64,000 nucleotides of DNA from Firmicutes bacterium HGW-Firmicutes-14. GTDB lineage: Bacteria > Bacillota > Thermincolia > Thermincolales > UBA2595. Below, piece by piece: positions 1 through 47,842 of this stretch; positions within the stretch are counted from its first letter, which is position 1; the number at the start of each line of letters is the position of its first letter. The position numbers and the translations under genes are program-made. The stretch covers positions 62,001 to 126,000 of the forward strand of contig PHAB01000002.1 of the NCBI GenBank assembly GCA_002840275.1, read 5' to 3'. Under the pieces are notes generated by a model, which did not search any database, was not told where the DNA came from, and was given only the letters and a program-made list of their open reading frames with translations.

Positions 1-441
1 GTTACATCTGGAGTGTTAACAATTCCTAATACCATTAAGAACATGGGAGCCCAATCGGATTACATTTCTTTTGGCCTGTTTAACATTGATAAACCGATTA
101 CTGATCTTACAGTACCTTTCTGGGAAAAGTTCCAAGAAAAGTATGGGTACCGTGGAACCGGGTTTAATGAAGTAAAAACGTACGATTCAATAAGGATCTT
201 GGCTGAGGCAATCAATAAGGCTGGATCTTTTGACAAGGATGCCCTTGCTAAGACATTGGAAACCGAACAATTCAAAGGCTTAGCTGGAACGTACAAATTT
301 GACGAGACGGACCACCAGGCTAAATGGGGCGAAGGCTACGTAAATGGCGTTTTGGCCGAATGGAAAGACGGCAAGGCTCAGGTTATCTGGCCTGAAAATG
401 TTAGGGATTCTGCATTAATCAGGGCGCCATGGTGGAAATAG
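1..441 (+). CDS. livJ: Branched-chain-amino-acid-type ABC substrate-binding protein, C-terminal part
   Basis: This is the last 146 codons of an extracellular ligand-binding protein; its start lies before the window. The reading frame is open from base 1 and stops at TAG 439-441. The fragment carries the typical end of the Peripla_BP_6 family: a YDSIRILAEAI helix, then a GLAGTYKFDE strand-turn and a tryptophan-rich tail. The five-gene context (permeases and ATPases follow) makes it the receptor of a LivJHMGF/HAAT importer. Family membership does not fix the ligand. The neighbouring catabolic genes suggest an amino-acid-like or amide compound rather than leucine itself. That last point is inference. 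Confidence 0.88.
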   Translation, partial: VTSGVLTIPNTIKNMGAQSDYISFGLFNIDKPITDLTVPFWEKFQEKYGYRGTGFNEVKTYDSIRILAEAINKAGSFDKDALAKTLETEQFKGLAGTYKFDETDHQAKWGEGYVNGVLAEWKDGKAQVIWPENVRDSALIRAPWWK

Positions 442-497
442 GTTGCATTTGCTGCTGCCGTTAAGAAAAGGCAAGAAATAATTTACCCCTAAATTTA

Positions 498-580
498 AGA
501 GTATCCCGAAATGGATTCCCGATAACTAAATGATCGCATGTTCAATTAATGTACGGGTGAAGTTTCGGGCTACTCTTTTT
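498..580 (+). terminator. Stem-loop between receptor and permease genes, probable attenuator
   Basis: Bases 498-511 pair with 563-576 over 13 of 14 positions, with one internal mismatch, and a T run follows (576-580). The loop is about 50 bases and can form a short inner CCCG/CGGG stem. It lies between the receptor and livH. This position is common for partial terminators or 3'-stabilising hairpins that keep receptor mRNA above permease mRNA. The structure is seen; the role is inferred. Confidence 0.6.
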
Positions 581-610
581 CTATGACAGGCTTGTTGGAG
601 GTGAGTTGCC

Positions 611-1471
611 ATGGCATTTATCCAGCTGGTTATCAGCGGAGTATTACAAGGCGGATTATATGCGCTGATCGCACTCGGTTTGACCCTGACGCTCGGCGTG
701 ATGCGGATTACGGATTTATCGTATGGGGTGTACTACACTTTAGGTGCTTATTTTTCCTTTTTCTTTATTATAAAGCTAGGGTTTAATTTTGTCCTTGCCG
801 GCATCTTATCCGTAGTTCTTGCATTTCTGATAGGTTTGCTAGTTGAGCGGTTATTGCTCAGACGGATTATCTCTGATGAACTATCAGTTATGATTCTAAC
901 GTTTGCCTTTGCTTACGCCCTAGAGGAGATAATTGTGTTTGTGTGGGGATCGCCGTTCCGCACGCTCCCTCCATATGCTATCGGAACGTTAAATATAGGG
1001 GGCATTTTACTGGAAAAGCAAAGGCTGGTAAGTTTTGCGGTTGCAGTAGTACTAATCGTTTTGGTACTTCTTTTCCTGAAGAAAACCAGATTTGGAAAAG
1101 CTCTCAGGATGGTTTCCCAGCAGCAGCATGGGGCATATTTGGTTGGCATTGATGTTCAACTGATTCAACGATTAACCTTCGCGGTTGGAAGCTTCCTTGC
1201 TGCCAGTGCTGCTGTTTTGCTCAGCCCGATTTACCTGGTCTATCCGGCTATGGGCTGGTCACCGCTGTTAAAGGCCTTTGGCATTGTGATTTTAGGTGGC
1301 ATGGGAAGTGTAAAGGGCACTATCATTGCCGCGTTTGCTTTGGCCCTAATCGAAGTACTTTCAAGCTATTATATAAATCAGTCTTTGTCGCAAGTAAGTT
1401 TCTTTGTAGTCTTAATTCTGGTGATCTTAATTAGACCGTCCGGACTTTTTGGGAACAGAGAAGGAGTGTAG
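611..1471 (+). CDS. livH: Branched-chain amino acid-type ABC permease LivH
   Basis: A 286-residue polytopic inner-membrane protein of the LivH family. The N-terminal helix GGLYALIALGLTLTLGVMRI is followed by YYTLGAYFSFFF, which matches the family pattern where a small polar turn precedes LGAY. Near the C-terminus GIVILGGMGSVKGT is the conserved EAA-like loop that contacts the ATPase. GGAGGTGA at 596-603 is well placed for ATG 611. It ends in TAG two bases before livM. It should form the translocation pore with LivM. Confidence 0.93.
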   Translation: MAFIQLVISGVLQGGLYALIALGLTLTLGVMRITDLSYGVYYTLGAYFSFFFIIKLGFNFVLAGILSVVLAFLIGLLVERLLLRRIISDELSVMILTFAFAYALEEIIVFVWGSPFRTLPPYAIGTLNIGGILLEKQRLVSFAVAVVLIVLVLLFLKKTRFGKALRMVSQQQHGAYLVGIDVQLIQRLTFAVGSFLAASAAVLLSPIYLVYPAMGWSPLLKAFGIVILGGMGSVKGTIIAAFALALIEVLSSYYINQSLSQVSFFVVLILVILIRPSGLFGNREGV

Positions 1472-1473
1472 CA

Positions 1474-2430
1474 ATGAAAGAAAAGAAATTGAATTTAATC
1501 TTCATACTTTTTTGGCTTATCGCCCTTCTCCTAGTACCTCCTCTGTTTCCAAGGTATTTGTTGCATGTGTTCATCATTGCCCATATTTATGCGGCATTTG
1601 CTCTTAGTTGGGACCTGCTGGCTGGTTACGTCGGAGAGTTGTCCTTGGGCCATTCGTTGTTTTTTGGGCTGGGGGCGTATTCAATAGGGTATTTAAGCGG
1701 CAAATTCGGAGTTGATCCCTGGCTTTCCATAGGCATATCCTGCATTGTTACGGTAGTTTGGGGACTGCTGATAGGTTTGCCGTGTTTAAGATTGAGGGGA
1801 CCATATCTGGCAATTGTTACCTTGGCTTTTCAAATGCTTTTCTTTTTATTGGCAAATTCTTTATACAACCTTACAGGGGGAGAAGAGGGAATAAGAAATA
1901 TTGAACGGGTATTTAACAGCACAGAATCTTATTATTACTTATCAGTGTTTCTGGTAATAATTGCTTTCATAATCTGCTATCTGTTAGTTAGTTCAAAGTA
2001 CGGCCTTATTTTCAGAACCATCCGGGAAAATCCGGAGGCGGCAGAAGCTGCAGGAGTCAACATTGTAAATTACAAAATGCTGGGATACATGGTATCCGCT
2101 CTAATTGCAGGTCTGGCGGGAAGTTACCAGGCTCTGTACCTAAAAATTGCTACCCCGGACACTTTAAGTATGGCACTGACCTTTTCAGCGATAACTATTG
2201 TGGCCATCGGAGGAAAGGGCACTCTGGTAGGAGCAGTATTAGGATCATATGTCACTACTTTTATTTTCGACAGGTTTGCTTTTTTAAAAGACTATAAAAT
2301 GCTCATGTACAGTATAGTTCTTGTACTATGCGTTCTCTTCTTCCGAAATGGACTTGCAGGAGCTGTCAAACGGGTTCTCCTTTGGAGAAAAATGGGGGTA
2401 GACAACATGCCCGGAGGGGGAAAAGCATAA
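1474..2430 (+). CDS. livM: Branched-chain amino acid-type ABC permease LivM
   Basis: A 318-residue membrane protein, the second permease half. It has about eight hydrophobic segments. The family motif after the second helix reads GYVGELSLGHSLFFGLGAY, and the cytoplasmic coupling loop reads FRTIRENPEAAEAAGVN, both characteristic of LivM. The start ATG 1474 lies two bases after the livH stop and follows GAAGGAGTG. The stop TAA shares its last base with the livG start (ATG at 2430), which implies translational coupling. Confidence 0.93.
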   Translation: MKEKKLNLIFILFWLIALLLVPPLFPRYLLHVFIIAHIYAAFALSWDLLAGYVGELSLGHSLFFGLGAYSIGYLSGKFGVDPWLSIGISCIVTVVWGLLIGLPCLRLRGPYLAIVTLAFQMLFFLLANSLYNLTGGEEGIRNIERVFNSTESYYYLSVFLVIIAFIICYLLVSSKYGLIFRTIRENPEAAEAAGVNIVNYKMLGYMVSALIAGLAGSYQALYLKIATPDTLSMALTFSAITIVAIGGKGTLVGAVLGSYVTTFIFDRFAFLKDYKMLMYSIVLVLCVLFFRNGLAGAVKRVLLWRKMGVDNMPGGGKA

Positions 2431-3170
2431 TGGTATTGGAAGCACGGGGACTGACCAAACGTTTCGGAGGACTTGTTGCGGTAAGCGACGTCAGTTTAAC
2501 CATTAATCAAGGAGAATTTGTCGGATTAATCGGGCCTAACGGAGCCGGAAAAACCACTTTGTTTAACCTCCTGACCGGCTTCCACAGGCCATCGGCTGGG
2601 ACTGTAGTTTTCAAAGGAGAGGATATTACCGGTCTTAAAACCAGCGGCAGAGTGCATCTAGGCCTGGCACGGACCTTTCAGATCGTGCAGCCCTTTCCTG
2701 AGCTTACTGTGAGTGAACATGTTCAGGTGGGCCTATTAACGAACAAACGTAAAAAACAAATAAATGTGCAGCAGGAAATTGAAGAAATCTTAAATGCGGT
2801 AGGCTTGGTTGAAAAGTCCAATGACTTGGCCAAACACTTATCCCTTGGTCAGTTGAAGCGCCTGGAAATTGCACGGGCAATGGCCACAGGCCCTTCGATG
2901 ATCTTACTCGATGAACCTTTCGGCGGGTTAGGGCAGCACGAAATCGCGGCAATTCAAGAGCTAATCACCGATTTGCAGCATAAGGGCGTAACTATCTTGA
3001 TAATTGAGCATGTCCTCAAGGCAATAATGAATTTGTGTCAAAGAGTAATTGTGTTGAATGAAGGACGCATACTTGCACAAGGTACACCGGAAGAAATAAT
3101 CAATAATCCTGAGGTTGTTGGCGCTTATTTGGGTAAAACTGATTCAGGACAGTTAAAAAAGGTTCTGTGA
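2430..3170 (+). CDS. livG: Branched-chain amino acid-type ABC ATPase LivG
   Basis: A 246-residue cytoplasmic ATPase. It has Walker A GPNGAGKTT, the Q-loop in ARTFQIVQPFPELTV, the signature LSLGQLKRLEIARAMA, Walker B MILLDEPFGGL and the switch histidine in IIEHVL. The frame is open further upstream into livM, but ATG 2430 overlapping the livM stop gives the usual LivG N-terminus (VLEARGLTKRFGG). The signature has LSLGQ where most homologues have LSYGQ or LSGGQ, a conservative variant. It pairs with LivF to drive import. Confidence 0.93.
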   Translation: MVLEARGLTKRFGGLVAVSDVSLTINQGEFVGLIGPNGAGKTTLFNLLTGFHRPSAGTVVFKGEDITGLKTSGRVHLGLARTFQIVQPFPELTVSEHVQVGLLTNKRKKQINVQQEIEEILNAVGLVEKSNDLAKHLSLGQLKRLEIARAMATGPSMILLDEPFGGLGQHEIAAIQELITDLQHKGVTILIIEHVLKAIMNLCQRVIVLNEGRILAQGTPEEIINNPEVVGAYLGKTDSGQLKKVL

Positions 3171-3186
3171 GGAGTGGCGGACTACG

Positions 3187-3891
3187 ATGTTAGAAGTTAA
3201 GGATCTGGTTGTTTATTATGGTAAGGCCCTTGCCCTTGAAAAAGTATCTTTGCTCGTCAAAGAGAATGAATTTGTCGCGTTGGTTGGACCAAATGGGGCT
3301 GGAAAAACTACCTTGCTTAATACGATTTCCGGCCTCCTTACCCCGGCTGCGGGAGAAATACTTTGGAATAACTCCAAAATAAACGGTATCAAGCCAAGTG
3401 AGATAGTTCGCCTGGGGATTTCACAGTGTCCGGAGGGGAGAAAGCTCGCACCGGAGATGACGGTTAGAGAAAATCTTGAAATGGGGGCATTTGTCCGTAA
3501 AGATAAAAAGAAAATCGCTGAGGATTTGGAGAAAACGTTTCAGTTATTCCCACGTTTAAAAGAACGGCATTTACAGCTGGCCGGGACCCTAAGCGGCGGG
3601 GAGAGGCAAATGGTGGCGATTGCCAGGTCCTTAATGTCCCGTCCCCGGCTCCTTATGCTCGATGAACCATCCCTTGGCCTGGCTCCCATTATCAAAGAAA
3701 AAATATTTGAGGTTATTAGAGAAATCAACAGCACAGGTACAACTGTCTTATTGGTCGAACAAGATACCCAAATGGCCTTTCAATTTGCGGATAGGGCCTA
3801 CGTCTTGGAAACTGGAAATATTGTTATGCATGATAAACCTGAACATCTGCTGGGCCAGAGTGAATTCCGGAAGGCCTATTTGGGATTGTAA
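3187..3891 (+). CDS. livF: Branched-chain amino acid-type ABC ATPase LivF
   Basis: A 234-residue ATPase, the normal length for LivF. Walker A is GPNGAGKTTLLN, the signature is LSGGERQMVAIARSLM and Walker B is LLMLDEPSLGLAP. The family-typical CPEGRKLAPEMTVRENL segment follows the Q-loop. A GAGGAGTGG site sits about ten bases before ATG 3187. It is the last transporter gene; the deacylase begins 35 bases later with its own ribosome site, so the importer and hydrolase are probably cotranscribed. Confidence 0.93.
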   Translation: MLEVKDLVVYYGKALALEKVSLLVKENEFVALVGPNGAGKTTLLNTISGLLTPAAGEILWNNSKINGIKPSEIVRLGISQCPEGRKLAPEMTVRENLEMGAFVRKDKKKIAEDLEKTFQLFPRLKERHLQLAGTLSGGERQMVAIARSLMSRPRLLMLDEPSLGLAPIIKEKIFEVIREINSTGTTVLLVEQDTQMAFQFADRAYVLETGNIVMHDKPEHLLGQSEFRKAYLGL

Positions 3892-3925: not shown

Positions 3926-5518
3926 ATGGATTTAATTATTAGAAAAGGCAGAGTTATCGACGGGACCGGCAGCAGTTGGTTTAAAGCAGATTTAGGAGTC
4001 AAGGATGGAAAAGTTCAAGCGATAGGCAATCTTGAAGGCAAGCAAGCTGCTTTAGAAATCGATGCTGCTGGAAAGTACGTTGCTCCCGGTTTTCTGGATA
4101 TTCATCAACATTCAGACATTACCCTGCTTGCGGGGCCGTCTGCGGACAGTGCTTTGAAACAAGGAATCACAACCATAGTCGTAGGCAACTGCGGTCATTC
4201 TGCGAGTCCGGTCAGGGACAAACAGCTCCTGAAATCTAATATTTACGGGTATCAGCCTGAGTGGGGTATAGACCTGGAATGGACAACAGTCGCGGGATAT
4301 ATAGAAAGGTTGAGGCGGGAAAAACCGGCAGTAAACGTGGGCACGTTGATTGGGCATGGGGCTATCCGGCTGGCGGCTATGGGTTTTGAAAACAGGGTGT
4401 GCACCCCGGAAGAATTGGCTCGAATGAAAGCCTTGCTTATAGAGTCTTTAGAACAGGGTGCATTGGGCTTATCAACGGGCTTGGAGTACTCTCCGGGGAA
4501 AAGTGCCGGCCTGGAAGAAATAGTTGAGTTGGTAAAGGTAGCCTCGAACTACCAGGGCATTTATGCAACCCATATCCGCAACCGGGAATACAAGTTTAAA
4601 GAAGCCCTGGAAGAGGCCATATCAACCGCCAAGACTGCTGGAACAAGGCTGCAGATCTGCCACGTTACCCCGCGGTTCTGGACTCCGGGGAATGCTACAG
4701 AAATGATTATCGACCTGTTGGAGGACGCCAGGAGTGAGGGGCTGGACGCAGCCTGTGATATTTACCCCTATTCTTTTGCTGCTTTCACGCTAGGGCTGTT
4801 TGTTCCGCCGTGGGCGTTTGAAGATGGCAACAATTCCGTTTTACAATATCTCAAGGACCGTACCGCAAGGGAAAAAATGAAGGAGTACACTAATCAACCT
4901 TTAGCTTATATGGCAGGCAAAGGTTATTGGGAAAAGATTATTCTCTGTACGTCAAATGCAAATCCCAACCTGGTGGGCTGTAGTTTTGCGGAAATTGCCG
5001 GAACCAGGGGGGTGGAACCCTTCGATGCCCTGCTCGATGTCTTATTGGAGGAAGGCGACAACTTTTATAATACTTTGGCGTACTGCATTACGATTGATGA
5101 AAAGGATATCGAAGGGATGATAAAATATCCCAATACCGTTATGATGTCGGACAGTTACTCTCTGGCAACCCGGGGCGTTCTTAAAAATACCGTAATGGGC
5201 CCGGCAGCTTACTCCTGGACAGTACACTATTTAACTCATTATATTAGGAACCGGAAACTCTTATCCCTTGAAGAGGGCATTCGCAGGATGACCTCCCTGG
5301 CTGCCCAAAGGTTGGGGATTATGGATCGCGGGCTGATTCGGCCTGGAATGTGGGCGGATTTGGTGGTATTTGATTACGATGCACTGGCCGACAATGCCAC
5401 ACTGGCAAATCCGAATCAACATCCCTCGGGAATTGAACACGTTTTTGTTAATGGGGGACACGTTATCAATAACGGAGAACACACAGGCAACAGATATGGC
5501 TCCGTTATTCTGGGCTAA
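3926..5518 (+). CDS. N-acyl-D-amino-acid deacylase / D-aminoacylase family amidohydrolase
   Basis: A 530-residue member of the metal-dependent amidohydrolase superfamily, closest to D-aminoacylase and N-acyl-D-glutamate/aspartate deacylases. The N-terminal strand IRKGRVIDGTG is typical. Metal-site motifs follow: FLDIHQHSD (His-x-His), the bridging cysteine in VVGNCGHS, LSTGLEYSPG, then YATHIRN and ICHVTP, with a late acidic MMSDS. These enzymes hydrolyse an N-acyl amide to release a free amino acid. Co-location with a Liv-type importer suggests it acts on the imported compound. Motifs differ slightly from classic D-aminoacylases (HQH for HTH, ICHVT for ISHHK), so substrate and stereospecificity are open. 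Its stop overlaps the convergent regulator by four bases. Confidence 0.82.
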   Translation: MDLIIRKGRVIDGTGSSWFKADLGVKDGKVQAIGNLEGKQAALEIDAAGKYVAPGFLDIHQHSDITLLAGPSADSALKQGITTIVVGNCGHSASPVRDKQLLKSNIYGYQPEWGIDLEWTTVAGYIERLRREKPAVNVGTLIGHGAIRLAAMGFENRVCTPEELARMKALLIESLEQGALGLSTGLEYSPGKSAGLEEIVELVKVASNYQGIYATHIRNREYKFKEALEEAISTAKTAGTRLQICHVTPRFWTPGNATEMIIDLLEDARSEGLDAACDIYPYSFAAFTLGLFVPPWAFEDGNNSVLQYLKDRTAREKMKEYTNQPLAYMAGKGYWEKIILCTSNANPNLVGCSFAEIAGTRGVEPFDALLDVLLEEGDNFYNTLAYCITIDEKDIEGMIKYPNTVMMSDSYSLATRGVLKNTVMGPAAYSWTVHYLTHYIRNRKLLSLEEGIRRMTSLAAQRLGIMDRGLIRPGMWADLVVFDYDALADNATLANPNQHPSGIEHVFVNGGHVINNGEHTGNRYGSVILG

Positions 5519-7155
5519 GACCGGCCTTGTGACAAAAACTCATAGGCGCAAAGGGCAAATTCAATAGCCATTCGCTTCTCCGTAGTCAAAAAATCGGTGC
5601 CCAACAACTCCTCTAACTTCTGAATTCGAACATATAAGGTTTGGCGAACGATATACAATTTCGCCGAGGTTTCTTGTTTTGACCCGTTGCATTCAAAATA
5701 TACGCGTAAAGTGCGGAGTAGGTCGGTATTATTGATTCGGTCATACTCGATTACAGGATCTAGATAATCATGGATAAATTGTTCTAAACTTCCTAACCTG
5801 TCCGTCATGGAGATAATGCGGTAGATGTGCAGATTATCATATATTGGATTTGAAACTTTTAATTTCTTTTGAATAGTTATGGCTTCCTGGGCTGTTTGCA
5901 AACTTTGTTTCAATTTACTAATGTTATCAATGTTTTTCCCAACACCAACGGTTACCCGGAACTTGTGGGGGTTATTATTGTTCTTAAATATAACTGACTC
6001 GAGATGTTCAGTAACTATGTTAAGTCTTTGTTGCCAGTTTTTATGAGGCTTCTTATCTAGCAGAATAAAGCTAATTTGATCGTTTAGAAAGCTGCAGCAG
6101 GAATAAAAACCCTGTTGTTCAAATACTGATCTGGCTACAAAGGAGGTTTGGATCAGCAATTCAGAAAGAAATTTATAATCATCGGATTGGTTTACATCAA
6201 ATTTTATCAAACATATCACAAATCCAGTTGGGTTAACAGGTGAATCCAAAAGCTTTAGGTTTTGATGAAGCGCTTCGTCTGCTAGTTTTCCTTTTATCCA
6301 ATCATTAATCCACTGAGTTTCTTCTAGATATGTTTTTTGTTTGGTGTATAATCCCCGAGCCAGGCTTTGAGCAACTGCGATGGCGCACTTGTTGAGAACC
6401 GAATGTTCAAATTCTACTATATTGCTGCCCAATGAAAAAATGCAAAGATCCGCCCACTTCTCATTGAAAGCTATAACTGATTTATAGGCGAAACTAGGGT
6501 CTTGGGGATGTCTAAGAGGTTCAGTCAGGGCTTCTGCATGATCTATAGACTCCTTAAACAATTGCAAAACCATGTTTTTCTTTTTAGGTGAAACAGATGG
6601 GACAAAGATAGGGTCCCCGTGAGCGGGAACATAAACCACGTTTACGTTTAAAAATCGGTGCAGAAAAAATAACAGGTCGTAAAGATTATGGGCAGATAAC
6701 AGTATGGAATTAAGTTGTTGGGAGAAGGCTTCCAAAACTGAGGTCATTTTATTGGTTTTGGTAATCATCATGGTTTGCAGCTCCCGGGTGATGTCAATAA
6801 ACCGCACGAACTCATTAAATACAATCAGAGGGAATTGGTTGTCATTTGCAATTTTTATCATTTCATCAGGGATTTTTGTGAAGTATGTGACTAATTCAAT
6901 GCAAAGGCAGGAAACATTTCGTTCAATTAGTTGTTCGAGGAAATTAATGGCCAATTTTTTGTTGCTAAAGCCTACACCTGTAGAAAGAATTAATTCCTGA
7001 CCATTAATAGATTCTTTTACTTGGTGGATTTTTTCCAATATGTGAACCCAGGTAATAACACGATCAACACCGTTGGCTCCTGCTACTAACTTCGCGTTAC
7101 GAAAAAGAGGAGAAGCTAGAATGTCTTTAACCGTAATTACAGTGGATGCAATCAT
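5515..7155 (-). CDS. PucR-family transcriptional regulator
   Basis: A 546-residue regulator. Residues about 8-125 form the PucR ligand-sensing domain (TVKDILASPLF, then LILSTGVGF). The middle resembles the CdaR/GGDEF-like spacer. The C-terminal 60 residues carry the PucR helix-turn-helix (LLRTLRVYFECNGSKQETS, then QTLYVRIQKLEELLG). Family members control catabolism of purines, allantoin, sugar acids or amino acids in response to the pathway substrate. It is convergent with the deacylase gene and divergent from the methyltransferase cluster, so both are plausible targets. A GGGGGG site precedes the ATG at 7155. It ends in TAG. Confidence 0.87.
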   Translation of the reverse strand: MIASTVITVKDILASPLFRNAKLVAGANGVDRVITWVHILEKIHQVKESINGQELILSTGVGFSNKKLAINFLEQLIERNVSCLCIELVTYFTKIPDEMIKIANDNQFPLIVFNEFVRFIDITRELQTMMITKTNKMTSVLEAFSQQLNSILLSAHNLYDLLFFLHRFLNVNVVYVPAHGDPIFVPSVSPKKKNMVLQLFKESIDHAEALTEPLRHPQDPSFAYKSVIAFNEKWADLCIFSLGSNIVEFEHSVLNKCAIAVAQSLARGLYTKQKTYLEETQWINDWIKGKLADEALHQNLKLLDSPVNPTGFVICLIKFDVNQSDDYKFLSELLIQTSFVARSVFEQQGFYSCCSFLNDQISFILLDKKPHKNWQQRLNIVTEHLESVIFKNNNNPHKFRVTVGVGKNIDNISKLKQSLQTAQEAITIQKKLKVSNPIYDNLHIYRIISMTDRLGSLEQFIHDYLDPVIEYDRINNTDLLRTLRVYFECNGSKQETSAKLYIVRQTLYVRIQKLEELLGTDFLTTEKRMAIEFALCAYEFLSQGRS

Positions 7156-7688: not shown

Positions 7689-9086
7689 ATGATGGGACAG
7701 ATTACAACTCGTATGGGGGATGGCTCGTTTATATCCCTGAGCCCGGACGACATTAAAAAAGAGATCGAGCTGGGGGTCCAGGAGGCGGTAATAAAGGCCA
7801 AAATAGCGTCTCTGACCAAAGAGGAAATGGATCAGCTTTATGAAATCATTGCCCAACCAAGGAAGTTCGTGAGCGTGGAAAGAGGCAATGAGTTAGTCCT
7901 GTCTTATGACTCGGCACCGATGAAGTTCACTCGCCTGGGGATTCCCATTGATCGATCTGCTATTTTGCTTATTTATGAAAGGGCCCTGGCTGCCGATACC
8001 TTGGAAATGGCCTATGTTCATTACAGCATGAAGAACATTAAGATTAATCTGAGCGAGGAGGTAGCGCCTCTGGCAATGGCCCTTTTAAATACTACTGCAC
8101 CTTTGATGTACGGCGCAATGCCTAACATGGGGCTTTATTACAAACCGGATGGTCCCTGTGATAATGCCGCGGAACTTTTTCCTCTAGGAAAAATAGGAGA
8201 AGCTCAAGCTGCTCAGGAAGAAGCTGCTAACTATCTGGAACAAGATATCATGCTTGTGGCCAGTGCCATGTATGAGGCCGGGGCCGATGGATTTGACTTT
8301 GATACAACGGCCTCGGCCGGAGATGCAGAATTCTATGCGGTCCTAAATGCGGTTACAAAGCTTAGGGAAAAGTATCCCGACATCGGTATCGAAATCGGCA
8401 TGTCCGGGGAATTCGTCCTGGGTTTTCACGGTGAGTTAAAGTATGACGGTAAACGTCTGGCAGGGATGTATCCCCATGACCAGGTGAAAGTAGCGGAAAA
8501 AGCGGGGGCAACCATATTTGGACCGGTGGTAAACACGAAAAGCAACAAAACTTTCCCGTGGAACCTGGCAAGGGCAGTGACTATGTGCAAGGCCTGCGGC
8601 GAGGTGGCCAACATTCCGGTTCATGCCAATGTTGGCATGGGTGTCGGGGGTGTTCCTATGGTTATCACTACTCCCGCCGATTGCGTATCCAGAGTGTCCA
8701 CCGCTATGGCTCAAATAGCCAAAATGGACGGGTTGTAGGTAGGCTATGGTGATCCTTCAGGTATGGCCATCGTTCATAGCCAGGCATCTGGAATGGGCGG
8801 CGTCCGAACTAGCGGAGATCTGGTAGGAAGGATGCAGCTAAATAAAAAGATGCGTTTAAATGAGGCTAAGCAATATGTGGCCGATAAACTGCGGGTTTCA
8901 GTCTCCGACCTGACCGACGAGGTGGCCATGAGAGGGTTGAGGGAGGACCTCAATATCTCCACGGTCTATATGGGCTATGATGCTCCGGCCAGAGGGATTG
9001 AAGCAAAATATAGAATAGCAGATATACTGGGTATCGATATCAATTCGGTCCAGCGATTCAAGAATATCGTTAGCAGTAAGAAGTAA
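7689..9086 (+). CDS. mtbB: Pyrrolysine-containing dimethylamine methyltransferase (MtbB) homologue, TAG read through at 8736-8738
   Basis: A corrinoid methyltransferase of the MtbB / Dimeth_PyL family, which moves a methyl group from a methylated amine to a cognate corrinoid protein. The frame from ATG 7689 (GGGAGAG before it) meets TAG at 8736-8738 and continues open in the same frame to TAA 9084-9086. It gives 465 residues, the family's usual length. The flanks read KMDGL-TAG-VGYGDPSGM; archaeal MtbB reads VDGI-Pyl-VGVGDPLGM from memory. Other conserved pieces are YGAMPNMGLYY, the FDTTASAGDAEFY segment, GEFVLGFHGEL, FGPVVNT and NVGMGVGG. Downstream ASGMGGVRTSGDLVGRMQL also matches MtbB. Pyrrolysine would be residue 350. 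No pyl genes, tRNA-Pyl or corrinoid protein gene are in the window, so decoding is inferred. It heads an aminotransferase/dehydrogenase cluster, so the substrate may not be dimethylamine. Confidence 0.86.
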
Positions 9087-9146: not shown

Positions 9147-10535
9147 ATGTCCAAAACAGAGAATGAACTCAGGCGGGAAGCTGACGCTCTGGTGGAGAAA
9201 GACCGCCAACATCTATGGCACCACCTAACGCAGCACAAAATCTTTCAGGCACAGGAACCGATGATAGTTGTCGAAGGTAAAGGCTGTATGATTACAGATC
9301 AACGGGGAAATCAATACCTGGACGGTCTTTCCGGAGGTGTTTGGTGCGTGAATGTTGGATACGGCCGAAATTCCATAGCGGATGTGGTAAGTGAACAACT
9401 ATCAAAGATGCCATATTACGCGTTGAGTATTGGTAATCCTCCGGCCATTGAATTAACACAAAAATTAGCCCAATTACTCCCTGACCTGCAGAAAGTGTAT
9501 TTTTCCAGCAGTGGTTCAGAAGCCAACGAAAAAGCCTTTAAAATATCCCGCCAGTACTTTCGCCTTAAGTACCCTGATAAAGAAAAGAACAAAATAATTT
9601 ATCGCCATAGGGATTATCACGGGGCAACCTATGGTGCGATGAGTGCCGGCGGCCAAACTGAGAGAACGCTTGGATACGGCCCTCTGGTACCGGGCTTTGT
9701 GGAAATGCCTCACTGCTGCTGTTACAGGTGTGAATTCGGCAAAACTTATCCCGGATGTGAGATTGAATGCGCTGCCGCCCTAGAAGAAATAATTCAGCAA
9801 GAAAATCCCGAGACCGTGGCAGCGGTGATTTTGGAAACAGTTGTGGCAGGCGGCGGGATAATAGTTCCCGTTGATGAATATTTGGGCATTATTGAAAAGA
9901 TCTGTCGCAAATATGAAGTATTTCTAATCTTGGACGAAGTAGTAAACGGTTTTGGCAGGACCGGTAAAATGTTCGGTTTCCAGCATTGGGATGTCAGCCC
10001 GGACATGATAACCACCGCCAAGGGAATGGCCAGCGGGTATTTGCCAATTTCGGCTACTATGGCTAAGCAGGAGATTTTTGCCCAGTTCGTCAATGAACCC
10101 GGTGAGACCCTCGCTTATTTCAGAGATATAAGTACTTTCGGCGGATGTGCGGCTTCTTGTTCCGCTACTTTGGAAAATATCAGAATTATAGAAGAGGAGA
10201 ACTTATGCCAAAACAGCGAAAAAATGGGTCGTCTGTTATTAGAAGGCTTAAAAGAACTGGAGAGCCATCCGATGGTGGGTGAAGTCAGGGGTATAGGACT
10301 TTTTGCCGGAATTGAGATAGTGGAGGATAAGCAAACCAAAGCCCCTGCTAATGAAAGCCTGATGGCTAAAATTGTTGGGGATGTCAAGGCTCAGGGGGTA
10401 ATTATCGGCAGAATGAACAGGAGTGTTCCCGGTTTGAACAACGTGGTCACCATGGCTCCTCCCCTGATTATTACTGCGGCAGAGGTAGAGAGAATAGTAA
10501 AATCAATCGGCTCCGCCCTGGCAAATATTAAATAA
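9147..10535 (+). CDS. Class III aminotransferase, taurine/omega-amino acid:pyruvate type
   Basis: A 462-residue PLP enzyme of class III. The PLP lysine is K292 in TTAKGMASGY; the phosphate-site SSSGSEANEKA and the aspartate of ILDEVVNGFGRTG are present. Blocks such as HLWHHLTQHK, EPMIVVEGKGC, YFRDISTFGGCAA and GVIIGRMNRS strongly resemble taurine:pyruvate aminotransferase (Tpa) as I remember it. The likely reaction is omega-amino acid + pyruvate to an aldehyde + alanine. The neighbouring alanine dehydrogenase would recycle alanine, the same pairing as in taurine degraders. The neighbouring dehydrogenase favours beta-alanine or 3-aminoisobutyrate over taurine. The choice of substrate is not settled by sequence. 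Confidence 0.85.
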   Translation: MSKTENELRREADALVEKDRQHLWHHLTQHKIFQAQEPMIVVEGKGCMITDQRGNQYLDGLSGGVWCVNVGYGRNSIADVVSEQLSKMPYYALSIGNPPAIELTQKLAQLLPDLQKVYFSSSGSEANEKAFKISRQYFRLKYPDKEKNKIIYRHRDYHGATYGAMSAGGQTERTLGYGPLVPGFVEMPHCCCYRCEFGKTYPGCEIECAAALEEIIQQENPETVAAVILETVVAGGGIIVPVDEYLGIIEKICRKYEVFLILDEVVNGFGRTGKMFGFQHWDVSPDMITTAKGMASGYLPISATMAKQEIFAQFVNEPGETLAYFRDISTFGGCAASCSATLENIRIIEEENLCQNSEKMGRLLLEGLKELESHPMVGEVRGIGLFAGIEIVEDKQTKAPANESLMAKIVGDVKAQGVIIGRMNRSVPGLNNVVTMAPPLIITAAEVERIVKSIGSALANIK

Positions 10536-10562: not shown

Positions 10563-12089
10563 ATGCACATGACAAAGGTAAGAAAACTACAGTTTTGTGT
10601 TGACGGGGAATGGCAGAACTCAACAGCCAAAGAGTTTATCCAGATAACCAATTCAAGCACCGGTGAGGTTTTGGCTGAGGCCCCCTGTTGCACTATTGAT
10701 GAAGTCGATAAAGCCGTCAGATCGGCAAAAACAGCTTATCCGGGGTGGGCGAATACTCCAGTTCAAAAAAGGGTCCAGATATTATTCCGTTACAAGAGGA
10801 TTTTGGATGTTCACTTAGATGAATTAACTCTGTTGGTCGCCACGGAATTGGGTAAAAACATTGATGAATCCAAGGGCGATATTCTTAAGGCTATTGAAGC
10901 TGTAGAAGTAGCTTGTTCCGCGCCATTTCTATTGCAGGGCGATTCACTAATGAATGTGTCGGATGGTTTTGACACCGTAATGTACCGAGAGCCATTAGGA
11001 ACTTTTGCGGGTATCGTTCCTTACAATTTTCCGGCTATGATTCCCTTTGGATGGATGATTCCTTTATGTATTGCCACCGGAAATACTTTCGTATTGAAAT
11101 TAGCCAATCAAGTACCGCAAACCGGCATCAGAATGCTCGAGCTGTTATACGAAGCGGGTCTCCCTAAGGGTGTTGTCAATTTAGTAATGAGTGATAATGA
11201 GGTTGCTGAATATTTAATCAAACACCCTGATATCAAAGGTGTTTGTTACGTGGGTTCTACGAGAGTGGGAAGGCATGTTTATAAAACTGCCGCCTCCCAC
11301 GGTAAAAGGGTACAAGCTTTATGTCAGGCAAAGAACCATGGACTTGTATTAAAAGATGCTGACCTGGAATTGACAGCTCGCAGGGTTATCAACTCTTCCT
11401 TTGGTTGTGCCGGTCAGCGATGTATGGCTCTTCCTGTGGTTGTGGTAGAAGATGAAGTGGCTGATTACTTTGCATCAATCTTAGTAGGGCTGGCCAAAGA
11501 AATAAAAGTAGGATGCGCATATGATACCACTACTCAATTAGGACCTGTTGTTACAGAGCAGCATAAAAAATCGATCCTGGCCTGGATTCAAAAAGGTATT
11601 GAAGAAGGCGCTCAATTAATCCTCAATGGCCGGGATATAGTGGTCGAAGGATATGAGAATGGTTATTTTATAGGGCCAACCATTTTTGATTACGTTAAAC
11701 CCGGTATGACTGTTGGGGAACAGGAAATCTTCGGACCTGTAGTTTGTATCAAGCGGGTCAAAGACTTCGAAGAAGGTATTACTTTGATGAACTCCAGCGA
11801 ATTTGCCAATGGGTCCTGTATTTTTACCAACAACGGATATTACGCTCGGGAGTTTGCCAGGCGGACTCATGCGGGGATGGTCGGTATAAATGTAGGTATT
11901 CCTGTACCGGTATCTTACTTCCCCTTCACAGGGCACAAGAATTCGTTTTTTGGGGATTTGCATGTTTTGGGCAAGGATGGAGTGGCCTTTTTCACTGAAG
12001 CAAAATGCGTTACTACTACATGGTTTGACCCTTCGCAAAAAGAAAATTTAATGAACATTGGTACTTGGGAAGGCGCTAAGAAAGAATAA
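10563..12089 (+). CDS. mmsA: CoA-acylating (methyl)malonate-semialdehyde dehydrogenase-type aldehyde dehydrogenase
   Basis: A 508-residue aldehyde dehydrogenase. The catalytic cysteine is C287 in FGCAGQRCMALP, a signature of the MmsA/IolA clade. At the usual general-base site (ELGGKN) it reads CQAKNHG. Loss of that glutamate is characteristic of the CoA-dependent members. The C-terminal VGINVGIPVPVSYFPFTG also fits MmsA. The expected reaction is malonate or methylmalonate semialdehyde + CoA + NAD to acetyl- or propionyl-CoA + CO2 + NADH. It lies 27 bp after the aminotransferase, which would supply the aldehyde. Use on another short omega-aldehyde remains possible. Confidence 0.86.
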   Translation: MHMTKVRKLQFCVDGEWQNSTAKEFIQITNSSTGEVLAEAPCCTIDEVDKAVRSAKTAYPGWANTPVQKRVQILFRYKRILDVHLDELTLLVATELGKNIDESKGDILKAIEAVEVACSAPFLLQGDSLMNVSDGFDTVMYREPLGTFAGIVPYNFPAMIPFGWMIPLCIATGNTFVLKLANQVPQTGIRMLELLYEAGLPKGVVNLVMSDNEVAEYLIKHPDIKGVCYVGSTRVGRHVYKTAASHGKRVQALCQAKNHGLVLKDADLELTARRVINSSFGCAGQRCMALPVVVVEDEVADYFASILVGLAKEIKVGCAYDTTTQLGPVVTEQHKKSILAWIQKGIEEGAQLILNGRDIVVEGYENGYFIGPTIFDYVKPGMTVGEQEIFGPVVCIKRVKDFEEGITLMNSSEFANGSCIFTNNGYYAREFARRTHAGMVGINVGIPVPVSYFPFTGHKNSFFGDLHVLGKDGVAFFTEAKCVTTTWFDPSQKENLMNIGTWEGAKKE

Positions 12090-12141: not shown

Positions 12142-13287
12142 ATGATTGTTGGTGTGCCTAAAGAGATTAAGAATAATGAAAACAGGGTCGCCCTCACGCC
12201 AGCCGGTGTTAAGGCAATGGTTCAGGCTGGGCACAAGGTTGTTGTCGAAGACAAGGCCGGTGTTGGGAGTGGGATTAGCAACGAACAGTATATTGCTGCC
12301 GGTGCTGCTATTCTCAACACAGCTGGAGAAGTCTTTATTGCCGCGGATATGATTATAAAGGTTAAAGAACCCCAGCCCCAGGAATGGGACCTTTTTAAAG
12401 AGGGACAAATCCTTTTTACCTACCTGCATCTGGCTCCTGAGCCTGAGCTTACCAGGGCTCTTTTAGACAGAAAAATTGTGGGGATTGCTTATGAAACCAT
12501 TCAGTTGGATAACGGTTCTTTGCCCCTCTTAACTCCAATGAGCGAAGTGGCAGGACGGATGGCGGTTCAGATTGGTGCAAGGTTCCTAGAGGAACCCCAA
12601 GGAGGAAAGGGTGTTCTTCTCAGTGGTGTCCCTGGGGTTCTGCCTGCTGAAGTTGTAATTATCGGTGGCGGTGTTGTTGGCACTAACGCCGCCAAAGTGG
12701 CCATCGGTATGGGCGCTAATGTAACCATAATTGATAAGAGCGCCGAAAGGCTTAGGTATCTGGACGATATCTTTGGCTCCAAAATAAAAACCTGTATTTC
12801 CAACAGTTACAACATCGAGGAAGCCGTTAGAAAAGCCGACCTGCTCATTGGCGCTGTCCTGGTTCCCGGCGCCAAGGCTCCCCACCTGGTTACTGAAGAA
12901 ATGGTCAAGTCCATGGGACCTCATAGTGTTATCGTTGATGTTGCCATTGATCAGGGTGGATCTATTGCCACAATTGATCGGGTTACTACCCACAGCAACC
13001 CGGTTTATGAAGTTCACGGGGTTGTTCATTATTCTGTGGCAAACATGCCCGGCGCTGTTGCAAGGACCTCAACCTTTGCTCTTACAAACGTAACCCTTCC
13101 TTACGCCCTGGAAATTGCCAACAAAGGTTATTATGCGGCGATCAGAGATAATAAGGCTCTAGCCCTTGGAGTAAACGTAATAAATGGTAAACTTACTTGT
13201 GAAGCCGTAGCAAAGGATTTAGGCATTAAATATACTCCTCTTGAAGAAGTATTGAACACCTATTCCAATATAGCTGCTACCCCTTAA
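12142..13287 (+). CDS. ald: Alanine dehydrogenase
   Basis: A 381-residue NAD-dependent alanine dehydrogenase (normal length about 370). It begins [19 protein letters not shown], with the substrate-binding Arg and the Lys of KVKEPQ. His is in YLHLAPEP, the Rossmann glycine motif is [11 protein letters not shown], and the catalytic Asp is in [22 protein letters not shown] lies before ATG 12142. In this cluster its likely task is to oxidise alanine from the aminotransferase back to pyruvate and ammonium, which keeps the transamination running and makes NADH. Confidence 0.95.
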
Positions 13288-17438: not shown

Positions 17439-20400
17439 ATGAAGAATTCTATACTTTCAAGGAAAACATCTGGTTACCCATATTGGGTGAAAGCAGTTGC
17501 CATGCTGTTGACCATATTTCTGGCATTGCCAATAATACCGGTCCAGCCTGCCTGGGCAGTCGACCCGGGATATCTGGTTATCCAGGGTAATGTTCAGGAC
17601 GACCTGGGAGACCCGTTACTGGGCTGTACCATCAGGTACCATTTTGAAAGCTCTGATGGCTCACAATTTAGCGAGAGCCAGACAACATCTTCTGATGTCA
17701 ACGGTGTATGGAGTTTTCCGGACGTATATGTTGGAACTTACTACAACAATAACTGGAAGCTGATAATTGAGGCATATAAGCTCGGCTGTGCCAGCTATGT
17801 TTCGGGAGAGTACTTCTATACCCCGGGGACAACTCTTAACCTGGGCTTCACTGTTGTCACCCACGGTACCCTTAATGTACATATAACAGACCTGGCGGGG
17901 AATCCCGTTCCTGCGGGTGTGCCGTATTGGTTTTCGTATTGCCTGCCTGACCAGGGCGGTTGGGAGTGGCCGTGGAATGCCCCCTTTGATGGAGTTACCC
18001 CTGAGCATTTTACGGATAACAGCGGCATAATTACCTTTGTCGCATATTATACAAGTTTTAATAATGGCATGGCTTTTCCTGCAGGTACCCAACGATATGG
18101 AGGCCTTAGCCAAACCGGCAGCCTGCGTTACGAGGTATCTAACAGTCCTGTCGGGCTGCCGTTTGAGCTCGGCCAGACCACAGACCTGACTATTGCAGTC
18201 AGGCCGCTGGGTAAAATCACTGCCCTGGCAAAAGATTCTGATACCGGCCAACCGGTTGCGTCAGCCCATTTTAATTACTCTTCCGTCTCACCCGGGATGA
18301 ATAAATATGCCTCGGTCAATGATGGGACCCTCAGTATTTATGCTGATGGAGACCTGGACGTGACCGCAACAAGTGATAGCAACCCGGCCATTGGGCTCTT
18401 CGGCTATGAAAGTGTGTCAGAGACAGTGACCGCGGTACCATGGGGTGAGGTCACGGTTGACCTTGATATGGTGCGCGATCAGCCCGGAACAATCCTCGGA
18501 ATGGTAACAGACGGGGAAGGCAGCCCTTTTCCCGGCGCCACAGTTGAATTGATCTGGCCCGAGTATTCTGAAGACGGAGAACAGTTAACCACTGTAATGC
18601 AGACAACCAGCGCTTCAGACGGTTCTTACAGCTTTTCCGGCGTAATCCCGTCAAGGAGCGGCGCATACATTGTCAGGGCTTCTAGGCCGGACTTTATTCC
18701 TGACCTGGACGGCGAAGTAATTGTTTGCAGTGACGAAACCACCTTTGTACCCGACCTGGCGCTGACACAGGATACAGAGCCTCCGTTCTGGTACGAATGG
18801 GCGGAACTGTATGCTTTTCCGGGGCGTACGAGTATCCTGCTTCAGTGGCACGAACCGGAGGACAATGTGGCAGTAACGGAATACAGGGTGTATCAGGGGG
18901 ATACCCTTCTGGACACCGTTTCGGGGGGGAATTTGTCCTATCTGGCTGCAGGCCTAGCACCAGCAACACAGTATTCCTTCAAAGTTGAGGCAGGTGACGC
19001 TGCCGGCAATTGGAGTACTACCGGACCCTCAATAACCAAAGCTACCCTGTCTTCTTACCAACCGGATCAGACAATTCAAAGGATAAGTATTTCCAGTGAC
19101 GGTATGCCGGCTAATGCTGACTGTGATACCCCTGATGTCAGCGCTGATGGGCGGTACATAGCATTCTCTTCTTATGCGGATAACCTGGTGCCCAATGATA
19201 ATAACGGGAGATCAGATATATTTATCTTTGACCGGGGGACGGGTGAAACCAAACGGGTCAGTGTTTCCACAGAGGGTACAGAAGGCAGCGGCAGCAGCAG
19301 AAACCCGGCTATAAGCGCAGACGGTCGTTATGTGGCCTTTGAATCCCTTGCTGATAATCTCGTGGCCGGTGATAATAACGGGGTTAGTGATATTTTCCTG
19401 CACGACCTGCAGACAGGCATTATCAGCCGGGTCAGTATTTCTGCCGACGGTGACGAAGGCGACAGCGGCAGCTATAATCCCTCTCTCAGCGCCGACGGGC
19501 GTTATATTGCCTTTGCTTCTTATTCGGTAAACCTGGTGGCCGGAGACTTAAACGGGAATGAAGACATATTTGTTTATGACCGTATAACCGGGGAAGTTGA
19601 AATAGTCAGCATTTCCAGTGACGGGGTCCAGGGTGACAGCTACAGCGAAGAACCGGCTATTAGCGCTGATGGTGTTTATGTGGCTTTTCAATCCCATGCC
19701 GGCAACCTGGCCAATAATGATTCCAATTACAGCGAGGATATTTTTGTGCACAACCGGGTCACCCATACCACGGAGTTGATCAGCGTATCAGTGGACGGGT
19801 CAGCAGCCACCGGGCAAAGCTATGCTCCGGCTATCAGCGCTGACGGCCGGTATGTTTCGTTTGAATCCAGGGCAAGTGACCTGGTAAGCGGTGATACTAA
19901 CGGGTATTATGATATTTTTGTGCGGGATCGCACAACTGGGACCACAGAACGCGTAAGTGTTTCTACAGCGGGCACTCAGGCCGGTTCCGGCAGTTATTAC
20001 CCCTCTATCAGTTCGGACGGCCGCTATGTGGCTTTTGAATCAGGGGCTGACAACCTGGTTACAGGCGATACAAATTATAGTTATGATACTTTTGTCTGTG
20101 ACAGGGAAACAGGTGAGCTTATCAGGGTAAGTGTAAACGCTTCAGGCGATGAAGCTGACGAGGGCGGCTGGTCGCCTGCAATCAGCGGAAACGGCAGGTA
20201 CATCACTTACGTTTCAGATGCTGAAAACCTTGTGGATGGGGATACCTATTATTATAGTGACAGTATCTTCCTTTATAACTGGCTGACCACAGCTGTTGCG
20301 GATACTGCAGCTCCTGACTGGCCGGGCGGAGGGACATTATCTGCAAATAATGTTGAAGAGGAAAGCCTGACCCTGACCTGGTCCGGGGCAATCGATAATG

Positions 20401-23400
20401 TGGGTGTGACCGGCTACAGGATTTACCTGGATGACAGCCTCCTGGATACAGTCAGCGGCGGTACTGCCATATACGATGTCACCGGACTGGATTCGGGCAC
20501 AACCTGCGAATTCAGGGTTGAGGCGGGAGATGAGGCGGGCAACTGGAGCACTGGCGGGCCGAGTACTATAGTAACAACTGCCTGGCCGCCATCGACAATT
20601 ACCACCGTGGCAGGCAACCAAGCTTTGGGCAGAGGCTATTCAGGCGACGGCGGCCCGGCCACCGGCGCCCAGATGAACAGGCCTTATGCTGTGGCGGTGG
20701 AAGAAAATGGCAGGTATTACATTGCAGATGACTGGAACAACTGTATTCGCATGGTGGATACTGATGGCACTATCACCACCGTGGCCGGTCTTGGTGGGGA
20801 ACAGAATGACGGGTTTTTCGGTGACGGCGGTCCAGCCACCAGCGCTAAGCTGTACTATCCCCATGGTGTGGCGGTGGACAGCGGCGGCAATATTTACATT
20901 GCTGACATGCAGAACAGCCGCATCCGTATGGTGGCCGGCTCTGACATGTCCCGGTACGGAATCCCGATGACTGCCGGAAACATATATACCGTGGCCGGCA
21001 CCGGGACCTCGGGCTATTCTGGTGATGGCTCCGCGGCAGTCAGTGCCGACCTCAACAAGCCCTATGGTATTGCTTTGGACAGCTCCGGAAATCTTTATAT
21101 CGCTGATACCTATAACAATTGCGTTCGCAAGGTGGATACCGGCGGGACCATCACCACTGCAGCCGGAAATGGGATGCAGGGCTACTCCGGCGATGGGGGC
21201 CCGGCAACTTCAGCCTGGCTGCAAAGGCCTTACGCGGTGGCGGTGGATGACGACGGTAACCTCTTTATTGCCGATGCCTCAAACAACCGTATCCGCATGG
21301 TGGCTGCTTCTGATCATACCCGGTACGGGATTGCGATGACTGAAGGGTATATCTATACTGTGGCCGGCAACGGGACTAATGGTTATTCCGGTGACGGGGG
21401 TCCGGCCATCGCTGCAAAACTAAGTTACCCCGATGGCCTGGCGGTGGACAGTGATGGCAGCCTGTACATCGCTGAGAGCTATAATAACGGCATCCGTAAG
21501 GTGGATACTGATGGAATCATCACCACTATAGCCGGTCAGGGGCCATTTTTCCCCGGTTATACCGGTGACGGGAACCTGGCCGGAGATGCAAAACTAAACG
21601 GCCCTCGCGGGGTGACCGTGGACAGTGATGGAAATCTCTTCATTGCAGACTCCGGCAACAATGTCATCCGCAAAATCTGCGCCGGGGAGCCGGTCGCAGA
21701 ACCGGCAGTTCCTATCAGCGATTTTGCCTGCACCGGAACAACTGATACGACAGCAGCCTTTAGCTTTACCGCACCGGCAGGGGCAGCGGCAGTTAAAATT
21801 CAGCAATCCACAGACGGCGGGGAAACCTGGTCGGATTCCACCACATCTGCGGCCCTGACGGCTGCTTCCACGACCGCCACAGTAACAGATTTAACAGACA
21901 ATACAGCCTATAAGTTCAAAATGGTGGTGACCGGTGGCAGCCATGCCGGTGATTCCAATACAGTTGATGTGACAACTGATACTGCGTCAGATACCACGCC
22001 ACCTTCCTGGAACGATTCAGCCAATATCAGCTTTTCTCCCGGCCGTACTGTTCCTGTTCAAAATGGAAGTATCGCGACAGGAGGTTCACACACCATAGCT
22101 ATCGGCTCGGACGGGTCGCTCTGGGCGTGGGGAGAGAATTATTATGGGACACTCGGCGATGGAACAAGTACCACCAGAAACACACCGGTTAAAATAGGCG
22201 CTGACACCGACTGGGCCTCTGTGGCGGCAGGATCAAACCACACAATGGCCATTAAATCAGACGGAACGCTCTGGGCCTGGGGATTCAACAACTGGGGCCA
22301 GAGGGGGGATGGGTCATATAGCACTAAGTACACACCGGTCAGGGTGGGTACAGACAGTGACTGGGCCTCTGTGGCAGCCGGGGGTGACCATACGGCAGCC
22401 ATCAAAGCAGACGGCACGCTTTGGACATGGGGATATAATACCTATGGCACACTGGGCGATGGCACCAATACCTACCGAACCACCCCTGTCATGGTAGGCA
22501 CAGACAGCAACTGGGTCTCTGTGGCGGCGGGCAGATACCACACAGCGGCCGTAAAATCAGATGGGACACTCTGGGCGTGGGGAAGTAATGCATACGGTTC
22601 ACTCGGAGATGGAACGACTACCGACAGAAACATACCGGTCAGGGTGGGTACAGACAGCGACTGGGTCTCTGTGTCGGCAGGAGAGACCCACACGGCAGCC
22701 ATCAAATCAGACGGGACCCTCTGGGCATGGGGAGGCAATAGCAGCGGTCAGCTGGGTAACGGAGGGTATACCGATATTAACGCACCGGCTAAAATAGGCG
22801 CTGACAGTGACTGGGCTGCAGTGTCTGCAGGAATGAATCATACGGCGGCCGTCAAATCGGATGGGACGCTCTGGACGTGGGGAGGCAATAACTGGGGTCA
22901 GAGAGGGGATGGAACCAATATTGTCAGTTACATTCCCGGTCAAATAGGCTCAGACAGTGATTGGGCTTCTGTATTCGCAGGGAATGGCAGTACAGCAGGC
23001 ATTAAATCAGACGGAGCGCTCTGGGCCTGGGGAAATAATTTGGATGGTCAGCTGGGAGATGGAACGTTTACCAGCCGGCTAAGTCCGGCTGCCATTGATT
23101 TATCCTTGCTTGACGGCAGCCTGACCCTGATGTGGTCCGGGGCAACCGATAATGTAGGTGTGACCGGATATCGGATATATCAGGATGACAGCCTTCTGGC
23201 AACTGTAAGCGGCACAGTATATAACGCCACCGGACTTGAAGCAGGTATTGAATATACCTTCAGTGTTCAGGCGGGAGACGCGGCGGGTAACTGGAGCACA
23301 GACGGGCCGGAAGTGAGCGCAGCTGCTCCCGCACCGCCGGATACTACACGACCAACCTGGGTTGACGGCATTTTAACATCTTCAGATTTAATGCCAACCG

Positions 23401-47748: not shown

Positions 47749-47842
47749 AAAGAAGGAAATACCGGAAAGTAATAGAAAATAACTACTATTGCAAGTCGTA
47801 CGCACCAGCATAAGGTATTTCAGTTGATACGGGGTGTTATCT

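Follow-up and report, generated by a model that had tools for sequence, protein, structure and literature searches.

The locus poses two questions: whether a reading frame interrupted by a TAG codon encodes one pyrrolysine (Pyl)-containing methyltransferase and, if so, which amine this enzyme would demethylate. Within the window, i.e. the whole stretch of 64,000 nucleotides that was analyzed, ordinary ORF calling yields a 349-residue protein ending at a TAG codon (positions 7689–8738) and a separate 107-residue protein (8763–9086). As the original prediction had stated, both belong to a single frame and are separated by just the TAG (8736–8738, forward strand) and eight sense codons.

A reading frame continuing through an in-frame TAG codon

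Reading through the TAG yields a gene of 465 codons (7689–9086, forward strand), whose residue 350 corresponds to the TAG position. In a Pfam profile search the joined product matched PF09505 (Dimeth_Pyl) over residues 6–459 with 605.9 bits, and the match to TIGR02368 reached 478 bits (cut-off 369.1). Both matches span the TAG and exceed the respective cut-offs, which places the product in the MtbB/Dimeth_Pyl family by sequence and provides homology on either side of an in-frame UAG, as expected of a genetically encoded pyrrolysine protein. To look at conservation, we aligned 70 full-length MtbBs drawn from relatives and named genomes. The TAG column was identical in all 70 sequences, and we regard this homology as the decisive evidence for a read-through gene. 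Moreover, dN/dS between close orthologues amounted to 0.04–0.08 after the TAG as compared to 0.03–0.05 before it, indicating that the frame downstream of the conserved UAG is under purifying selection. G+C content by codon position is similar 5’ and 3’ of the TAG in the window gene, and the open frame of 115 codons 3’ of the TAG would be expected from composition alone with a probability of ~0.002.

A PYLIS_2-like stretch (RF02509, mtbB; 8736–8835, forward strand) was detected by Rfam cmscan with 58.8 bits (gathering score 36) and begins exactly on the TAG. The same family was matched in orthologues L080 and L126 and in one canonical mtbB copy. The fold z-score was −2.95 in the window gene and about 0 in two orthologues. 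As folding in these two orthologues did not exceed that of shuffled sequences, the element was not counted as independent proof; the match may stem from conservation of the coding sequence no less than from RNA structure.

Decoding of UAG as pyrrolysine requires a dedicated machinery, and the absence of all its genes would have spoken for a nonsense-mutated gene. The assembly (3.65 Mb in 67 contigs, 99.96% complete) was therefore searched family by family. A tRNA-Pyl with CUA anticodon is present at C15:5989–6060, followed by pylSn, pylSc, pylB and pylD, each scoring above its NCBIfam cut-off, while pylC is located apart at C19:1454–2566. Hence, tRNA-Pyl(CUA), PylS and PylBCD occur together in one genome. 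This genome carries three MtbB genes with one TAG each and five relatives of MttB, four of which contain one TAG. In view of the conserved TAG column, the low dN/dS ratios and the complete pyl set, which bear out the decoding originally proposed from family membership, TAG 8736–8738 is almost certainly translated as pyrrolysine, as far as in vivo decoding can be deduced from sequence.

The same 99-bp end is found on contig C23 and on contig C15, which carries the pyl operon; this operon is thus probably adjacent to a methylamine cluster on C23. Two pylB genes, which are 65% identical, were observed (L005 and L075; C15:3632–4747 and C19:331–1491), and pylC adjoins the second copy on C19, away from pylS and pylD. 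The contig ends C19:1–81 and C10:3473–3553 encode identical last 27 residues of MtmB, so there are probably two or more mtmB genes, the common body of which was lost in assembly. About 20 matches to corrinoid-binding proteins, distributed over many contigs, point to a broad methyl-group metabolism.

A divergent MtbB paralogue carrying histidine at position 111

The original prediction called the product an MtbB homologue. Membership in the Pyl-containing MtbB family holds, but this label misses what sets the protein apart, i.e. its status as third paralogue, its residue 111, its operon and probably its substrate. The other two MtbBs of the genome are encoded on contig C23, where they cluster with Pyl MttB and several corrinoid proteins. 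The window MtbB shares 53% and 50% identity with them and is a divergent extra paralogue outside the ordinary methylamine clusters of the genome. In a tree of the 70 sequences it falls into a clade of nine members with maximal support (100/100), which also comprises L080 and L051 (72% identity) and sequences from six genomes of family f12 (65–66%). No MtbB was found on plasmids.

As side observations, five other genomes (G055, G093, G158, G411 and G349) possess three to five MtbB paralogues each, which belong to different clades of the tree, a radiation that hints at several substrates. Two MtbB relatives (G411:C101:40829–42205 and G420:C150:13026–14414) carry, beside the TAG, a further stop codon in frame (TGA or TAA) and represent pseudogenes or sequence errors.

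The clade is distinguished by codon 111 (8019–8021, forward strand), which specifies His in 9/9 clade members and Asp in 61/61 MtbBs outside the clade, including those of archaea. A partial Methanohalobium sequence (L038) likewise has Asp at this position. Thus, the window protein lacks one of the residues invariant in other MtbBs, the retention of which might be expected of a dimethylamine-specific enzyme. Further clade-specific residues include A160, Y353, F246 and A129. In an AF2 model of the window MtbB (mean pLDDT 95.3, pTM 0.94), Pyl350 lies within strand 348–351 and residue 111 in the loop directly following strand 105–107. In TIM barrels, active sites are formed at the C-terminal ends of the strands, which makes an active-site role of residue 111 plausible; in the modeled fold, His111 may touch the substrate. 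A search for solved structures matching MtbB by sequence found none, and Foldseek returned only general TIM-barrel matches (MmuM, MetH, BHMT) with low TM-scores.

Gene neighborhood in the window and in orthologous loci

MtbB is the first gene of an operon that continues with a class III aminotransferase, a CoA-acylating aldehyde dehydrogenase and alanine dehydrogenase, all on the forward strand. The aminotransferase (9147–10535; PF00202) is Tpa-like, i.e. of the taurine/hypotaurine/beta-alanine:pyruvate type. Its best matches include plasmid-encoded proteins annotated as Tpa (48–50%), and it shares 65% identity with an enzyme of genome G093 that directly adjoins Xsc (sulfoacetaldehyde acetyltransferase). 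The dehydrogenase (10563–12089) is of the (methyl)malonate-semialdehyde type (TIGR01722, 567.5 bits; cut-off 448.5), and its best solved match is 1t90. It retains the Arg-Cys motif of the family, while Lys replaces one family arginine, which we take to be the carboxylate-binding residue. Judging from this exchange, malonate semialdehyde is a likely but not a sure substrate. Alanine dehydrogenase (12142–13287; TIGR00518, 559.6 bits; cut-off 391.85) shares 69% identity with its counterpart in the orthologous operon of L080.

Upstream, a PucR-family regulator gene (5515–7155, reverse strand; PF07905, PF13556) is divergently oriented to the MtbB operon. It is preceded by an amidohydrolase gene (3926–5518, forward strand; PF07969), which possibly supplies the substrate of the pathway, although this link is uncertain, and by genes for a Liv-type ABC transporter (LivH, LivM, LivG and LivF by profile matches; 1–3891, forward strand), the binding protein gene of which begins before the window at C37:61194. 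Profile searches of the window revealed no MttB, MtbC or MtmB between 5515 and 13787; the MtbC and methylamine genes that would be expected near a dimethylamine-specific MtbB are lacking there. When the remaining genome was searched for a dedicated MtbC, only canonical copies turned up, and the closest relative of the clade’s MtbC is a C23 protein with 47% identity. The corrinoid partner, which must be inferred as it is not encoded in the operon, is the weakest link of our proposal. Farther downstream, the window encodes a protein of 3835 aa with RCC1, NHL, Ig-like and fn3 repeats and S-layer homology domains (17439–28946) and one of 2418 aa with doubled CXXCH (multihaem cytochrome-like) motifs (47834–55090).

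In L080 (Clostridia bacterium CROMO_A_192), the clade MtbB is followed by MtbC, alanine dehydrogenase, a Tpa-like aminotransferase and Xsc, the latter being cut by the contig end. This aminotransferase is 88% identical to the Xsc-adjoining enzyme of G093. L051 has the order MtbB, MtbC and alanine dehydrogenase, with a non-Pyl MttB relative upstream. In the f12 genomes the clade MtbB occurs with MtbC, aldehyde:ferredoxin oxidoreductase (AOR) and another class III aminotransferase, and a Liv transporter or a PucR-family regulator is in places found nearby; Liv transporters adjoin MtbB in L077 and L128. At L126 the order is non-Pyl MttB, corrinoid protein, Pyl MttB, Pyl MtbB, corrinoid protein, AOR and aminotransferase. 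Altogether, a transaminase is encoded nearby in six of seven assessable clade members as compared to 2–3 of 19 other MtbB loci (Fisher P 0.0008–0.002), a count based on manual judgment of which loci could be assessed and on a small set of partly related loci. The link to a transaminase is kept across three families of genomes, whereas transaminase subfamilies and aldehyde enzymes vary among the orthologues.

Proposed substrate and alternative readings

As a third paralogue outside the methylamine clusters, with Asp111 replaced by His and an operon for omega-amino acid breakdown, the window MtbB probably does not act on dimethylamine. We propose that it demethylates an N-methyl omega-amino acid such as N-methyl-beta-alanine or N-methyltaurine, a substrate assignment to which we give a probability of roughly 0.55. 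MttB, MtbB and MtmB handle trimethylamine (tertiary), dimethylamine (secondary) and methylamine (primary), respectively. If one methyl group is exchanged for a side chain R, MttB would accept R-N(CH3)2 and MtbB R-NH-CH3; in the clade, one methyl of dimethylamine (CH3-NH-CH3) would be swapped for an acidic side chain. The product R-NH2 would make MtmB dispensable, and no MtmB was recognized in the clade cassettes.

According to this proposal, the 465-residue product would be a corrinoid-dependent methyltransferase, whose Pyl ring, by analogy to MtmB and MttB, would bind the secondary amine and offer the N-methyl group to a Co(I) corrinoid protein. A single MtbB ahead of a transaminase would then serve to remove a lone methyl group. 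The resulting primary amine would be transaminated with pyruvate by the Tpa-like enzyme, and the malonate-semialdehyde-type dehydrogenase would oxidize the aldehyde thus formed, yielding an acyl-CoA, while alanine dehydrogenase would regenerate pyruvate and free ammonia. Where the cassettes are longer, non-Pyl MttB (quaternary), Pyl MttB (tertiary), Pyl MtbB (secondary) and transaminase could form a stepwise series. We consider it slightly more probable than the opposite that the His111 clade as a whole demethylates N-methyl omega-amino acids within such betaine-type stripping pathways.

The window enzyme resembles MtbB, the dimethylamine:corrinoid methyltransferase known e.g. from Methanosarcina (PF09505, TIGR02368), in its full-length family match, the TAG/Pyl position and the invariant core columns, but it differs by its separate clade, by His111 in place of an invariant Asp, by a location outside a methylamine cluster without adjoining MtbC and by its tie to omega-amino acid catabolism. 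A second precedent is provided by the non-Pyl MttB superfamily, which acts on larger quaternary amines: MtgB on glycine betaine, MtpB on proline betaine and MtcB on carnitine, with gamma-butyrobetaine as a further substrate (cited in PMC9768040). Here too, corrinoid methyltransferases were recruited for larger N-methylated compounds, and in L126 and L051 genes of this type are located ahead of the Pyl genes. However, these enzymes lack Pyl and demethylate quaternary amines, whereas the window enzyme is a Pyl-containing member of the MtbB family with a proposed secondary amine substrate. With taurine dissimilation operons (Tpa, alanine dehydrogenase, Xsc) the window shares the Tpa-like transaminase and alanine dehydrogenase, and all three enzymes are encoded beside the L080 orthologue. 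In contrast to these operons, the window operon lacks Xsc and has the MMSDH-type dehydrogenase instead, with the Pyl methyltransferase at the head. Since no match above the TIGR03457 cut-off for Xsc was obtained in the genome of the window, a taurine end-route is not supported there, and the amine is not necessarily taurine.

Bacterial Pyl proteins are uncommon, as the original prediction had it, but they are well documented: Pyl methyltransferases including MtbB are already known from bacteria, with 23 such genes in one genome (PMC6778437). What is new here is the likely job of the window MtbB. Pyl methyltransferases have so far been linked only to tri-, di- and monomethylamine, and a new role has been raised for Pyl-MttB (PMC9768040). 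Our search of the openly licensed literature found no paper assigning another substrate to an MtbB and nothing relevant on methylated-taurine substrates. If our proposal is true, pyrrolysine serves substrates beyond the simple methylamines. The locus offers a concrete candidate, as it combines a marker residue with a pathway consuming the expected product, and a single enzyme could test it. As ordinary gene calling splits all such Pyl genes, the pathway would be hidden from routine annotation.

The main competitor, to which we assign a clearly lower though still substantial probability, is an ordinary Pyl-dependent methyltransferase for dimethylamine, with the additional MtbB copy lying beside an amino acid operon by chance. 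Indeed, the window protein passes the TIGR02368 equivalog cut-off for dimethylamine enzymes and matches PF09505 over its full length, and the genome has other genes for the use of tri-, di- and monomethylamine. The TIGR02368 score also counts against an N-methyl amino acid, as does the lack of a dedicated MtbC in the operon with a best genome match of just 47%. Against the ordinary enzyme speak the clade-wide replacement of an Asp invariant in 61 other MtbBs, a transaminase link conserved over three families of genomes and the missing MttB, MtbC and MtmB neighbors in the window.

Less probable still, and in our view unlikely, is a Pyl methyltransferase acting on a secondary or tertiary amine outside our proposal, for instance one freed by the adjoining amidohydrolase. 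The amidohydrolase and the Liv transporter upstream would fit such a role, as would the differing transaminase subfamilies and aldehyde enzymes of the orthologues, but a class III transaminase in all fully readable clade contexts except one argues for a primary amine product with an acidic or aldehyde-forming end. A nonsense-mutated gene or a true stop leaving only the 349-residue protein is hardly credible and was rejected: although TAG serves as terminator in about a fifth of the long ORFs (23 of 114) within the examined parts of this genome and UAG is thus ambiguous here, the invariant TAG column, purifying selection downstream and the complete pyl machinery contradict it.

Transaminase genes also accompany a second MtbB clade, represented by L052 (G055:C33) and L138 (G077), together with AOR, a BCCT transporter and both Pyl and non-Pyl MttB; the transaminase is again of class III, and this context suggests other betaine-type substrates. 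A fragment of 73 aa adjoining the L052 MtbB is 67% identical to alanine dehydrogenase.
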